The notes below the pieces were generated by a model that did not search any database, was not told the origin of the DNA, and worked only from the letters and a program-made list of their open reading frames with translations. The translations under genes and the position numbers were made by a program. Shown here piece by piece: positions 27,400-35,066 of a DNA stretch of 64,000 bases; position 1 is the stretch's first letter, and the number at the start of each line of letters is the position of its first letter. The DNA comes from Noviherbaspirillum sp. L7-7A. Lineage in GTDB: Bacteria; Pseudomonadota; Gammaproteobacteria; Burkholderiales; Burkholderiaceae_D. The DNA lies in contig NZ_JAHQRJ010000001.1 in assembly GCF_019052805.1 (NCBI RefSeq), positions 372,001-436,000 of the forward strand, in the 5' to 3' direction.

Positions 27400-30300
27400 A
27401 TGCATGCCATTACCGATTTCCCGCACGACCTCGACCGCAAGATGTTGCTGGCCGCCCTGACGGCCCTGAAGAAAGGCGATTTCTCGGTGCGTATGCCGAC
27501 CGACCTGACTGGCCTGGATGGCAAGATCGCCGATACGTTGAATGAGATTATCGAAAACAGCGGTCTGATGGCGCAGGAGATCGCCAGCGTCAGCCAGACG
27601 GTCGGCCGGGAAGGGCGGCTGCTGCAGCGCGCGACGGCGGCCAATGTGTCGGGCGGCTGGGGCACGATCGTCAATTCGGTCAACACCCTGATCGACGACC
27701 TGGTGCGGCCGACCACGGAAATGGCGCGCGTCATCGGCGCAGTGGCCAAGGGCGATCTGTCGCAGACCATGTCGCTGGATGTGGATGGCCGGCCGCTGGA
27801 AGGCCAGTTCCTGCGCGCCGCGGCCACCGCCAACACCATGGTGGACCAGCTGAGTTCGTTTGCTTCTGAAGTCACCCGCGTGGCGCGTGAGGTGGGCACC
27901 GAGGGCAAGCTGGGCGGCCAGGCCAACGTGCCGGGCGTGGCGGGTACCTGGAAGGACCTGACCGACTCGGTCAACTCCATGGCCGGCAACCTGACCTCGC
28001 AGGTGAGGAACATCGCCGACGTGACCACCGCTGTGGCCAACGGCGACCTGTCGAAGAAGATCACGGTGGACGTGCGCGGCGAGATCCTGCAGTTGAAGGA
28101 CACCATCAACACCATGGTGGACCAGCTGCGCTCCTTTGCATCCGAGGTGACCCGCGTGGCGCGTGAAGTGGGCACCGAAGGCAAGCTCGGCGGCCAGGCC
28201 TATGTGCCCGGCGTGGGCGGGACATGGAAGGACCTGACCGACAACGTGAACTTCATGGCGTCGAACCTGACGGGGCAGGTGCGTAACATCGCCGAGGTGA
28301 CCACGGCGGTGGCCAACGGCGACCTGTCGAAGAAAATCGCGGCCGATGCGCGTGGCGAGATTTTGCAGCTGAAGGAAACCATCAACGTGATGGTGGACCA
28401 GCTCAGCTCCTTCGCGTCCGAAGTAACCCGCGTGGCGCGTGAGGTAGGCACCGAGGGCAAGCTGGGCGGCCAGGCGCAGGTGAAAGGCGTGGCGGGCACC
28501 TGGAAGGATCTGACCGACTCGGTCAACTCGATGGCCGGCAACCTGACGGGCCAGGTACGTAACATCGCCGACGTGACCACTGCCGTGGCCAACGGCGACC
28601 TGTCCAAGAAAATCACCGCCGATGCCAAGGGCGAGATCCTGGAACTGAAGGACACCATCAACGTGATGGTGGATCAGCTCAGCTCCTTTGCATCGGAAGT
28701 CACCCGTGTGGCGCGTGAGGTGGGCACCGAGGGCAAGCTCGGCGGCCAGGCCAACGTGCCGGGCGTGGCCGGCACCTGGAAGGACCTGACCGACTCGGTC
28801 AACTCCATGGCCGGCAACCTGACGGGCCAGGTGCGTAACATTGCCGACGTGACCACCGCCGTGGCGAATGGCGACCTGTCGAAGAAGATCACCGCCGATG
28901 CCAAGGGCGAGATCCTGGAACTGAAGAACACCATCAACGTGATGGTGGACCAGCTGAGCTCCTTTGCATCGGAAGTGACCCGGGTGGCGCGTGAAGTCGG
29001 CACCGAGGGCAAGCTCGGCGGCCAGGCGCAGGTGAAGGGCGTGGGCGGCACCTGGAAGGACCTGACCGAGAACGTGAACTTCATGGCATCGAACCTGACG
29101 GGTCAGGTGAGAAACATCGCCGAGGTGACCACGGCGGTGGCGAACGGCGACCTGTCCAAGAAGATCACGGTGGACGTCAAGGGCGAGATCCTGGAGCTGA
29201 AGGACACCATCAACGTGATGGTGGACCAGCTGAGTTCCTTTGCCTCCGAAGTCACCCGCGTGGCCCGTGAAGTGGGTACCGAAGGCGAACTGGGCGGCCA
29301 GGCCAACGTGCCCGGTGTGGCCGGTACCTGGAAAGACCTGACCGACTCGGTCAACTCGATGGCCGGCAACCTGACCGGCCAGGTGCGTAACATCGCTGAC
29401 GTGACTACCGCGGTGGCCAACGGCGACCTGTCCAAGAAGATTACCGCCGATGCGAAGGGCGAAATCCTGGAACTGAAGAACACCATCAACGTGATGGTGG
29501 ACCAGCTGAGCTCGTTCGCTTCCGAAGTCACCCGCGTGGCCCGTGAAGTGGGCACCGAAGGCAAGCTGGGCGGACAGGCCAACGTGCCCGGCGTGGCCGG
29601 CACCTGGAAGGACCTGACCGACAACGTGAACTCCATGGCCGGCAACCTCACCGGCCAGGTGCGTAACATCGCCGACGTGACCACTGCCGTAGCGAACGGC
29701 GACCTGTCGAAGAAGATCACCGCCGACGCCAAGGGCGAGATCCTGGAGTTGAAAGACACCATCAACGTGATGGTGGACCAGCTGCGTTCCTTTGCATCCG
29801 AGGTGACTCGCGTGGCGCGTGAGGTGGGTACCGAAGGCGAACTCGGCGGCCAGGCTAACGTGCCGGGCGTGGCGGGCACCTGGAAGGACCTGACCGACTC
29901 GGTCAATTCCATGGCCGGCAACCTCACCGGCCAGGTGCGTAACATTGCCGACGTGACCACCGCCGTGGCAAACGGCGATTTGTCCAAGAAGATCACCGCC
30001 GATGCCAAGGGCGAGATCCTGCAGCTGAAGAACACCATCAACGTGATGGTGGACCAGCTGAGCTCATTTGCATCGGAAGTAACCCGTGTGGCCCGTGAGG
30101 TGGGCACCGAAGGCAAGCTGGGCGGCCAGGCGCAGGTGAAGGGCGTGGGCGGCACCTGGAAGGACCTGACCGACAACGTGAACTTCATGGCATCGAACCT
30201 GACGGGCCAGGTGCGTAACATCGCCGAGGTGACTACCGCGGTGGCCAACGGCGACCTGTCGAAGAAGATCACCGCCGACGTGAAGGGCGAGATCCTGGAG

Positions 30301-34218: not shown

Positions 34219-35066
34219 GCGCCGTGCCGGCCGCGGTCAGCACGGTCCTGGAAATCGAGACCGAGCTGTTGCTCGAGGCGCTGTACCGGATGTACGGCAC
34301 CGACCTGCGCGAGATGGACCGCGCGGCCTTGCGCCCGCGGCTGGTGGCCTTCATGCGCCGCCGCGGCCTGGCCTCGCTGTCGGCGGTGCAGGCCGAGGTG
34401 CTGCATGACCAGGCGCTCGGCGTCGAACTGCTGCGCTGCCTGTGCCTGCGTCCGGCCGCCCTGTTCGACGACCCGGCCCGGATTGCGCTGCTGCGCCAGA
34501 CACTGGGGCCGTGGCTGCGTTCCTGTCCGGTGGCGCGCGTCTGGATATCCGAATGCGGCGGCGCCGAGGATGTCTTTACGCTGGCCATCCTGTTGCGGGA
34601 AGAGGGGTTCTACGACAAGACCCTGCTGTTCGCCACCGCCTCCAGCGAAGCCATGCTCGACGCCGCCCGCGCCGGCCGCTTCCCGGCCAGCGAACTGGGC
34701 CGTTACCAGCAGAACTACCTGCGCAGCGGCGGCCGCCACACGCTTGCCGATTACCTGGTCAGCGGCGAGCCGGATACCGATGGCAACCTGTCGTTCCGCC
34801 CCGAGCTGGGCAGGAACATCATCTGGGCGCAATACAACCTGGCCACCGATGCCACCTTCAATGAATTCCAGCTGATCGTCTGCCGTGGCGCGCTGTCCGA
34901 CCTGCAGCCGGCCCTGCGCCAGCGCGCGCTGCGGTTGTTCCATGAAAGCCTCGCGGTGTTTGGCTACCTGAGCGTGCATCCGGCCGATGCGCTGAATCAC
35001 TTGCCCAATGATGTGGATTTCAGGGCGGTGCATGCGGATTCGGGGTTGTACCGGCGGGTCAGTTAA
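34203..35066 (+). CDS. Degenerate CheR-like methyltransferase
   Basis: The 287-residue protein overlaps the end of the kinase gene by 16 bases; a GTG at 34215 would give the usual four-base overlap. The N-terminal part matches the CheR helical domain ([38 protein letters not shown]). The SAM domain is altered: the usual W-x-AGCSTGEE motif reads [16 protein letters not shown], and the CRNVLIYF motif reads CRGALSDLQ, although [18 protein letters not shown] is kept. Methyl transfer may be lost and the protein may serve as a binding partner of the kinase. No CheB or chemoreceptor is nearby. Confidence 0.75.

Follow-up and report, generated by a model that had tools for sequence, protein, structure and literature searches.

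The 64,000-nt stretch of Noviherbaspirillum sp. L7-7A analysed here (NZ_JAHQRJ010000001.1, 372,001 to 436,000; hereafter the window, to whose positions all coordinates refer) carries the gene for a 2272-residue hybrid histidine kinase with a long array of HAMP domains, divergent from a second kinase gene. With a probability of about 0.6, the two kinases together make up a soluble sensor complex like the AskB/AskC pair known from Myxococcus xanthus, in which a HAMP rod would bias the large protein towards kinase or phosphatase activity. The observations behind this reading are the domain architecture, the intact kinase motifs, the conserved pairing with a partner kinase, the lost motifs of a CheR-like neighbour and the linkage to a three-gene cassette. 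The large kinase belongs to a widespread, little-studied bacterial family of group III-like poly-HAMP kinases (Amb07, AskA/AskB). The features of the locus are as follows, REC denoting a receiver domain and HK a histidine kinase.

27400..34218, plus strand: poly-HAMP hybrid histidine kinase, 2272 residues (open frame from TTG 27343; Pfam; repeat units)
27400..27873, plus strand: N-terminal extension and HAMP cap, two canonical HAMPs flanking one inferred divergent HAMP (matched by PDB 9TRK/9TRJ)
27874..31461, plus strand: 13 body units of 92 residues (276 bp each), read as di-HAMPs
31519..31935, plus strand: GAF domain (Pfam PF13185, residues 1393-1531)
32149..32862, plus strand: HisKA and HATPase_c kinase core, motifs intact (Pfam and motif check)
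33058..34194, plus strand: three receiver domains (first boundary from motif positions; last receiver at residues 2173-2284)
34203..35066, plus strand: CheR-like protein, likely a pseudo-methyltransferase (PF01739, E = 6.7e-15; probable ATG 34203, frame from GTG 34128)
25511..27253, minus strand: AskC-like partner kinase of REC-HK-REC layout, its gene divergent from that of the poly-HAMP kinase (Pfam; receiver profile)
25122..25514, minus strand: small winged-helix-like protein (130 residues), first gene of the cassette (profile comparison)
24868..25125, minus strand: DUF5985 protein a, small, hydrophobic, membrane-type (PF19447, E = 1.6e-27)
24600..24875, minus strand: DUF5985 protein b, small, hydrophobic, membrane-type (PF19447, E = 3e-25)

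The open reading frame scan gave a TTG-initiated frame of 2291 codons (27343-34218, plus strand), within which the ATG at 27400, the start chosen in the first-pass annotation, is matched by a methionine in the relatives L125 and L126 and at the start of L137. Pfam searches of the product returned 13 HAMP (PF00672) and 14 HAMP_2 (PF18947) stretches, GAF_2, HisKA, HATPase_c and three Response_reg stretches; the kinase core motifs are intact and aspartates are present in all three receivers, and the order of GAF, kinase and three receivers is the one first noted. No membrane helix was found in the kinase by hydropathy (a dedicated membrane-helix predictor was not applied), since the highest 19-residue mean is only 1.53 and lies within the GAF domain. 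Neither a methyl-accepting chemotaxis protein (MCP) signalling domain among the Pfam matches of the kinase nor a cysteine among the 1264 residues of its array was detected. With a multi-HAMP N-terminus, no transmembrane region by hydropathy, and a kinase followed by several receivers, the protein is classed with the bacterial group III-like poly-HAMP hybrid kinases.

The body of the array consists of 13 units spaced exactly 92 residues apart (TRF score of the repeat, 4381), which a conserved 97-residue step joins to the cap. Units 1-11 share 86-100% of their residues, the last two being more distant. About 15 canonical HAMPs, each alternating with a divergent partner, had been proposed, and the first part of this claim held: the canonical total is read as 15, the two N-terminal ones included. 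The alternation itself is not demonstrated by Pfam, as both HAMP models cover the same half of the unit (best stretches 213-263 and 476-538; unit starts 178 and 454) and so count the canonical HAMPs twice, and the second half of each unit has no Pfam name. Whole units align to the Vibrio Aer2 model of NCBIfam (NF041847) in 14 stretches (e.g. 1014-1106 to 424-516) and such pairs have been described for the class, so the unnamed half is read as a divergent HAMP, giving 14 putative divergent partners. When profiles of the two halves are compared directly, they align in register, though weakly (E = 0.013, probability 3%), and the total of about 29 HAMPs is therefore partly inferred. Two solved structures match the cap and first units, 9TRK over residues 18-310 (293 ungapped positions, 426.6 bits) and 9TRJ with 255.7 bits, but both are truncated constructs, fusions with the molecule name histidine kinase-Gcn4p; no paper describing them was found in the literature search. 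At the DNA level, units 1 and 10 of the window are 99% identical to each other, whereas their identity to the same two units is 93-95% in the nearest relative and 91% in the next, a pattern expected if units exchange sequence within a gene.

Related loci were gathered from a scan of named genomes (best 80 loci), from a family sample of 195 genomes and from a phylum sample of 299 genomes. The 98 loci counted below comprise the 80 named loci, 17 family loci picked after their C-terminal kinase and CheR-like matches had been seen, and the window; contig-end fragments and two one-unit Nostoc kinases are included. Two Nitrospirillum loci (L042, L043) are near-identical. By record title, the best 80 named loci belong to Proteobacteria, Cyanobacteria, Verrucomicrobia, Acidobacteria, Myxococcota, Bacteroidota and others, and the nearest relatives of the window kinase among them are Oxalobacteraceae, not myxobacteria. 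A C-terminal kinase match at E 1e-150 or better was present in 104 of the 195 family genomes, including shorter kinases without a long array. The lists of poly-HAMP genomes were read by eye and hold 66 of 195 family genomes (best match about 840 bits or more) and 21 of 299 phylum genomes; in the latter the cut is not uniform, as G246 is included (43% identical, 1498 residues) and G231, G275, G278, G326 and G343 are omitted (frames above 1400 residues, 42-48%).

Over the 98 loci, 711 of 824 unit steps measure 92 residues and 67 measure 97 (the cap step), the remainder being mostly short steps to partial N-terminal matches. The 97-residue step directly precedes the body run in 67 of the 74 arrays complete at the 5' end (99 residues in two), a set that includes the window and one paralogue from its own genome. 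These arrays span 3-15 body units, so the 13 units of the window are not exceptional, as they had first been thought to be. Dunin-Horkawicz and Lupas, who surveyed HAMP domains in 2010, reportedly described very long arrays. The three congeneric genomes examined carry 13 (G055), 13 (G015) and 11 (G078) body units, with C-terminal identities to the window kinase of 98%, 93% and 75%, respectively, and against both G055 and G015 10 of the 13 window units find their best match in the unit of the same number. As independent congeneric assemblies thus carry 13 units, the array is regarded as real. An origin of the repeats by misassembly, to which the 99% DNA identity of units 1 and 10 would be favourable, was refuted by these assemblies, is further opposed by the frame open throughout and by the 92-residue period common to all 74 arrays, and deserves virtually no credence. 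The window genome also has three further kinases of the same chassis (L128-L130; G000:C1:1501460, 2096089 and 1470279), whose inputs are, in this order, a short array, an even shorter one and a CHASE3 sensor; all three have a REC-HK gene in their vicinity. The loci L130 and L019 show that a GAF-kinase-REC chassis can bear either a CHASE3 membrane sensor or a poly-HAMP array, as if the input module had been swapped.

The usual partner of poly-HAMP kinases is an N-terminal-receiver kinase resembling AskC. Among the 67 frames downstream of the kinases, 51 were aligned (the 16 omitted were Oxalobacteraceae and other CheR-like or short ones), and 47 of these had a receiver and 39 a HATPase_c domain. 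With a receiver profile built from 45 sequences of named-locus partners, a REC-HK gene was found within 4 kb of the poly-HAMP kinase in 81 of the 98 loci (the window itself, 66 of the 80 named loci and 14 of the 17 from the family sample; the paralogue loci L128-L130 not counted), and the first-pass expectation of a conserved neighbourhood was borne out. Farther out in the flanks, the profile gave 1 match in 715,010 bases. Because the profile derives from the named loci, independent tests come from the family loci taken together with the window (15 of 18) and from the phylum loci (10 of 10; 10 of the 21 loci were used, six picked for DUF5985 and four others). All 66 named partners lie on the same strand as the kinase, 58 on its 3' side and 8 on its 5' side, and the partner is divergent in the window and in 7 of the 17 family loci. 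The window partner scores 150 bits with the profile, and 62 nt separate the open frames of the two kinases. On the opposite strand it forms a tightly packed set with the 130-residue protein and the two DUF5985 proteins. No description of a conserved partner kinase across phyla was found in the literature searched.

In M. xanthus, the hybrid histidine kinase gene askC lies directly downstream of askB, purified AskA, AskB and AskC bind one another, and the third receiver of AskA contacts the AskC receiver in a two-hybrid test (PMC7643160). On these grounds the locus was matched to the AskB/AskC system, the adjacent hybrid kinase with a receiver being represented by the divergent REC-HK-REC. Like AskA/AskB and Sorangium Amb07, the window kinase is a soluble poly-HAMP hybrid kinase with several receivers and shows partial matches of helix-turn-helix (HTH) type over its HAMPs; as in the AskB/AskC pair, a second hybrid kinase gene stands beside it (PMC7643160). 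Unlike in AskB/AskC, the partner is divergent rather than downstream and has a REC-HK-REC layout, and the locus includes a degenerate CheR-like gene and a DUF5985 cassette. The first-pass view that the locus could not be matched to a described system does not stand, given the correspondence in architecture and kinase pair (PMC7643160) and the presence of a family array in the PDB. Beyond the myxobacterial one, no bacterial poly-HAMP kinase system was found in the literature search, which left most subscription journals outside. Array length also changed between two Myxococcus species, the askB tract (MXAN_6735) having grown or shrunk (PMC4603909).

The proposed kinship in architecture with fungal group III kinases (Nik1/Os-1, Bos1, Drk1) was supported, as both have a poly-HAMP N-terminus, no membrane helix, a kinase and a receiver. 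The Nik1 repeats are presumably similar to the window units. Bos1 has six HAMPs (PMC3418262) against about 29 in the window kinase, the fungal output runs through Ypd1 and the high-osmolarity glycerol (HOG) pathway, and the window array differs from Drk1 in having no cysteine. Work on these fungal kinases reports HAMP mutations in almost every mutant resistant to fludioxonil, and a switch of Drk1 from kinase to phosphatase activity (PMC6433957). Stacked HAMPs also occur in Pseudomonas aeruginosa Aer2, a chemoreceptor with a heme PAS domain and five HAMPs, not a kinase, whose HAMP conformers pass on opposite signals (PMC3570549).

Several findings weigh against a complex of the AskB/AskC type. 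Ambruticin was bound by AskC only, not by purified AskA or AskB (PMC7643160). No REC-HK gene lies within 4 kb in 17 of the 98 loci, including several Massilia/Duganella and cyanobacterial loci, although 3 of the 17 end too soon to tell. Pairing is moreover not specific to long arrays, as the short-array and CHASE3 kinases L128-L130 also have a nearby REC-HK. The myxobacterial stand-in for the AskB locus was Hyalangium L059, whose partner (REC-PAS-PAS-HK) is 45% identical to the REC-HK-REC in the first receiver and 35% in the kinase and differs from it elsewhere.

The CheR-like frame (34128-35066) does overlap the end of the kinase gene, as first noted, by 16 nt from the probable ATG at 34203. 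Its product belongs to the CheR family by sequence (PF01739; PDB 5FTW, E = 3.9e-13), with FFR changed to LFD, xGEE to AED, ATD to ATA and CRNxxIY to CRGxxSD. From CheR structures, we take the FFR, xGEE, ATD and IY residues to be catalytic and S-adenosylmethionine-site positions. Among 44 aligned rows, four residues are missing from all 29 family copies beside such kinases (the window, 18 loci of family genomes and 10 named loci): the arginine of FFR, the glycine of xGEE, the aspartate of ATD and the tyrosine of IY. Of the 15 remaining rows, 13, representing 12 genes, retain every one of the seven checked residues, the exceptions being L018 and L077; the 13 include, from the window genome, the canonical CheR and two other CheR genes. 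The ratio of nonsynonymous to synonymous substitutions (dN/dS) of the CheR-like gene is 0.18 and 0.27 against two congeners and 0.48 against a third, more distant one, values low enough to indicate that the protein is kept, and the neighbour is likely a pseudoenzyme under purifying selection.

A CheR-like gene lies at the 3' end of the kinase gene in the window and in 17 of 17 family loci (chosen after CheR matches had been seen) and within 2 kb in 18 of the best 80 named loci, 10 of these 18 being among the 15 named Oxalobacteraceae loci, while 9 of the 66 poly-HAMP genomes of the family sample had no CheR-like match at 1e-10. An intact copy adjoins, in the same relative place, the CHASE3-GAF-kinase-REC3 gene of the same genome, which has no array; CheR coupling is therefore a property of the kinase chassis and not of the array. 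These absences, the copy beside an array-less kinase and the lost active-site residues in the window are at odds with the earlier idea that coupling to CheR defines the system. No degenerate CheR partner of a poly-HAMP kinase was found described in the literature searched.

The two DUF5985 proteins score 96.0 and 88.8 bits against a curated cut-off of 27.3 (PF19447) and share a relationship with one another (hhalign E = 3.8e-7). The 33 distinct cassettes examined (34 loci, one genome occurring twice) all have the order winged-helix-like, DUF5985a, DUF5985b. Winged-helix proteins of the ArsR type are matched by a profile built from the first protein (HlyU, E = 5.8e-6). In the window protein (25122-25514) and its 32 relatives, a C-terminal FADAF is nearly invariant and looks like a binding tail. 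DUF5985 occurs in 39 of the 195 family genomes, all 39 of which have a poly-HAMP-type kinase, compared with 27 of the other 156 (Fisher test, 1.4e-23, kinship ignored); in the phylum sample, all six genomes with DUF5985 above the cut-off have a poly-HAMP kinase, compared with 15 of the other 293 (5.8e-8, kinship ignored), and adding the five omitted genomes to the list leaves 6/6 unchanged. The cassette lies within 10 kb of the kinase in four of these six genomes, directly divergent from it in three besides the window genome, and in the fetched flank of 8 of the best 80 named loci, many flanks being short. Linkage of REC-HK kinases and of the DUF5985 pair to poly-HAMP kinases was thus upheld in other phyla. 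In the family, the cassette is linked to the kinase in the window clade and a few others, not in most loci fetched, and 27 of the 66 poly-HAMP family genomes have no DUF5985.

A few DUF5985 members weakly resemble seven-transmembrane (7TM) sensor modules, at best with E = 0.003 in one member of 32 and far below the curated cut-off, and no match was obtained against solved structures. Ten genes adjoining cassettes gave six without a Pfam match and four in unrelated families, one a chemoreceptor. No literature naming DUF5985 was found by the search, outside which most subscription journals lay, nor any description of the cassette. Of the components considered, the cassette is the strongest candidate for either an input from the membrane side or an output under regulation. 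In G313, of the same genus as G486, a lone weak DUF5985 fragment (L195, 5190-5759; 24 bits) is divergent from the poly-HAMP gene and is perhaps a decayed cassette. In G486 itself (L194, 3465-9437), the poly-HAMP gene appears as two adjacent frames (581 and 1409 residues) split by a stop, with cassette and partner kinase present beside it.

In the proposed complex, the poly-HAMP protein would form a parallel dimeric rod of about 29 HAMP bundles, as its family and solved relatives suggest. Rod and cap, perhaps with the GAF domain, would hold the kinase in a kinase- or phosphatase-biased state, by analogy with fungal group III kinases (PMC6433957) and Aer2 (PMC3570549), and a cytoplasmic cue would shift this bias. 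Phosphate would flow from the kinase to the three receivers, one of which may pair with the N-terminal receiver of the divergent REC-HK-REC, and the latter would add a second input. The CheR-like protein may act as a non-catalytic binding partner with an adaptor role, and the winged-helix/DUF5985 cassette probably either passes on a cue from the membrane side or is under the control of such a cue.

Methylation of the array or kinase by the CheR-like protein, resetting it as in chemotaxis adaptation, would fit the family membership of this protein (PF01739, 5FTW) and the position of its gene at the 3' end of the kinase gene. It is very improbable: the active-site residues are lost in 29 of 29 copies, whereas all seven residues survive in the paralogue linked to the CHASE3 kinase of the window genome, and the kinase has no MCP signalling domain; adaptation of this kind was rejected because of the lost residues. 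The DUF5985 pair could instead be a membrane sensor that relays to the soluble kinase, sensor and kinase being split, an alternative that is doubtful. It agrees with the co-occurrence in 39/39 family and 6/6 phylum genomes, with the physical linkage described above and with the weak 7TM similarity, but 72 of the best 80 named loci have no cassette in the fetched, often short, flank, many family cassettes lie away from the kinase, DUF5985 is missing from 27 of the 66 poly-HAMP family genomes, the 7TM similarity is far below the cut-off, and the co-occurrence statistics ignore shared ancestry. A fuller split receptor, in which the cassette would be the membrane sensor module, its two small membrane proteins would carry the cue, the HAMP rod would receive it without itself being a membrane protein and the dead CheR would be an adaptor, is rather unlikely; if true, the receptor would be divided between a sensor gene and a kinase gene, with a HAMP rod as the link.

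The first-pass proposal of an osmosensor or tension rod in the cytoplasm, comparable to Nik1/Os-1, draws on the shared architecture class (poly-HAMP, no membrane helix, kinase, receivers) and on the comparison of Amb07 with NIK1 (PMC7643160). This is distinctly unlikely, as the M. xanthus Ask kinases serve in development and in the response to ambruticin and glycerol, glycerol being judged an unlikely direct ligand (PMC7643160). The thiol mechanism proposed for Drk1 via C392 in a HAMP (PMC6433957) cannot act in the window array, which has no cysteine, and cysteine (methylglyoxal) sensing by this array was ruled out. Putative tethering of the kinase to DNA or the nucleoid by the array draws on AskB, which binds PmrpC DNA in vitro and whose array yields SpoIIID/HTH-like partial matches (PMC7643160), and on the PF12116 (SpoIIID) match of the window kinase (48.4 bits overall). 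As these matches overlap the HAMP repeats and no single stretch passes alone, such a tether appears quite improbable. A two-kinase complex of the AskB/AskC type remains the preferred reading.

Members of the poly-HAMP family occur in many bacterial phyla and are similar to the fungal kinases that phenylpyrrole fungicides need for their action, and how a signal crosses dozens of stacked HAMPs, and what enters the array, are questions that bear on the whole family. The locus offers several handles on them: the kinase that usually accompanies the array, the strict register of 92 residues, the degenerate CheR kept by selection, and the cassette of three genes, the last of which makes the origin of the signal testable by gene deletion.

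An output gene shared across loci was considered and rejected, since clustering of the flanking frames mainly recovered the cassette, receiver/kinase genes, CheR-like genes and frames that look antisense; many kinase-type genes fall together in the largest cluster, which is therefore uninformative. A scan of 27100-27500 found no promoter or terminator. Downstream of the CheR-like gene, the window carries a 6-base tandem repeat (GTTGCC, 5.5 copies, 35332-35364).

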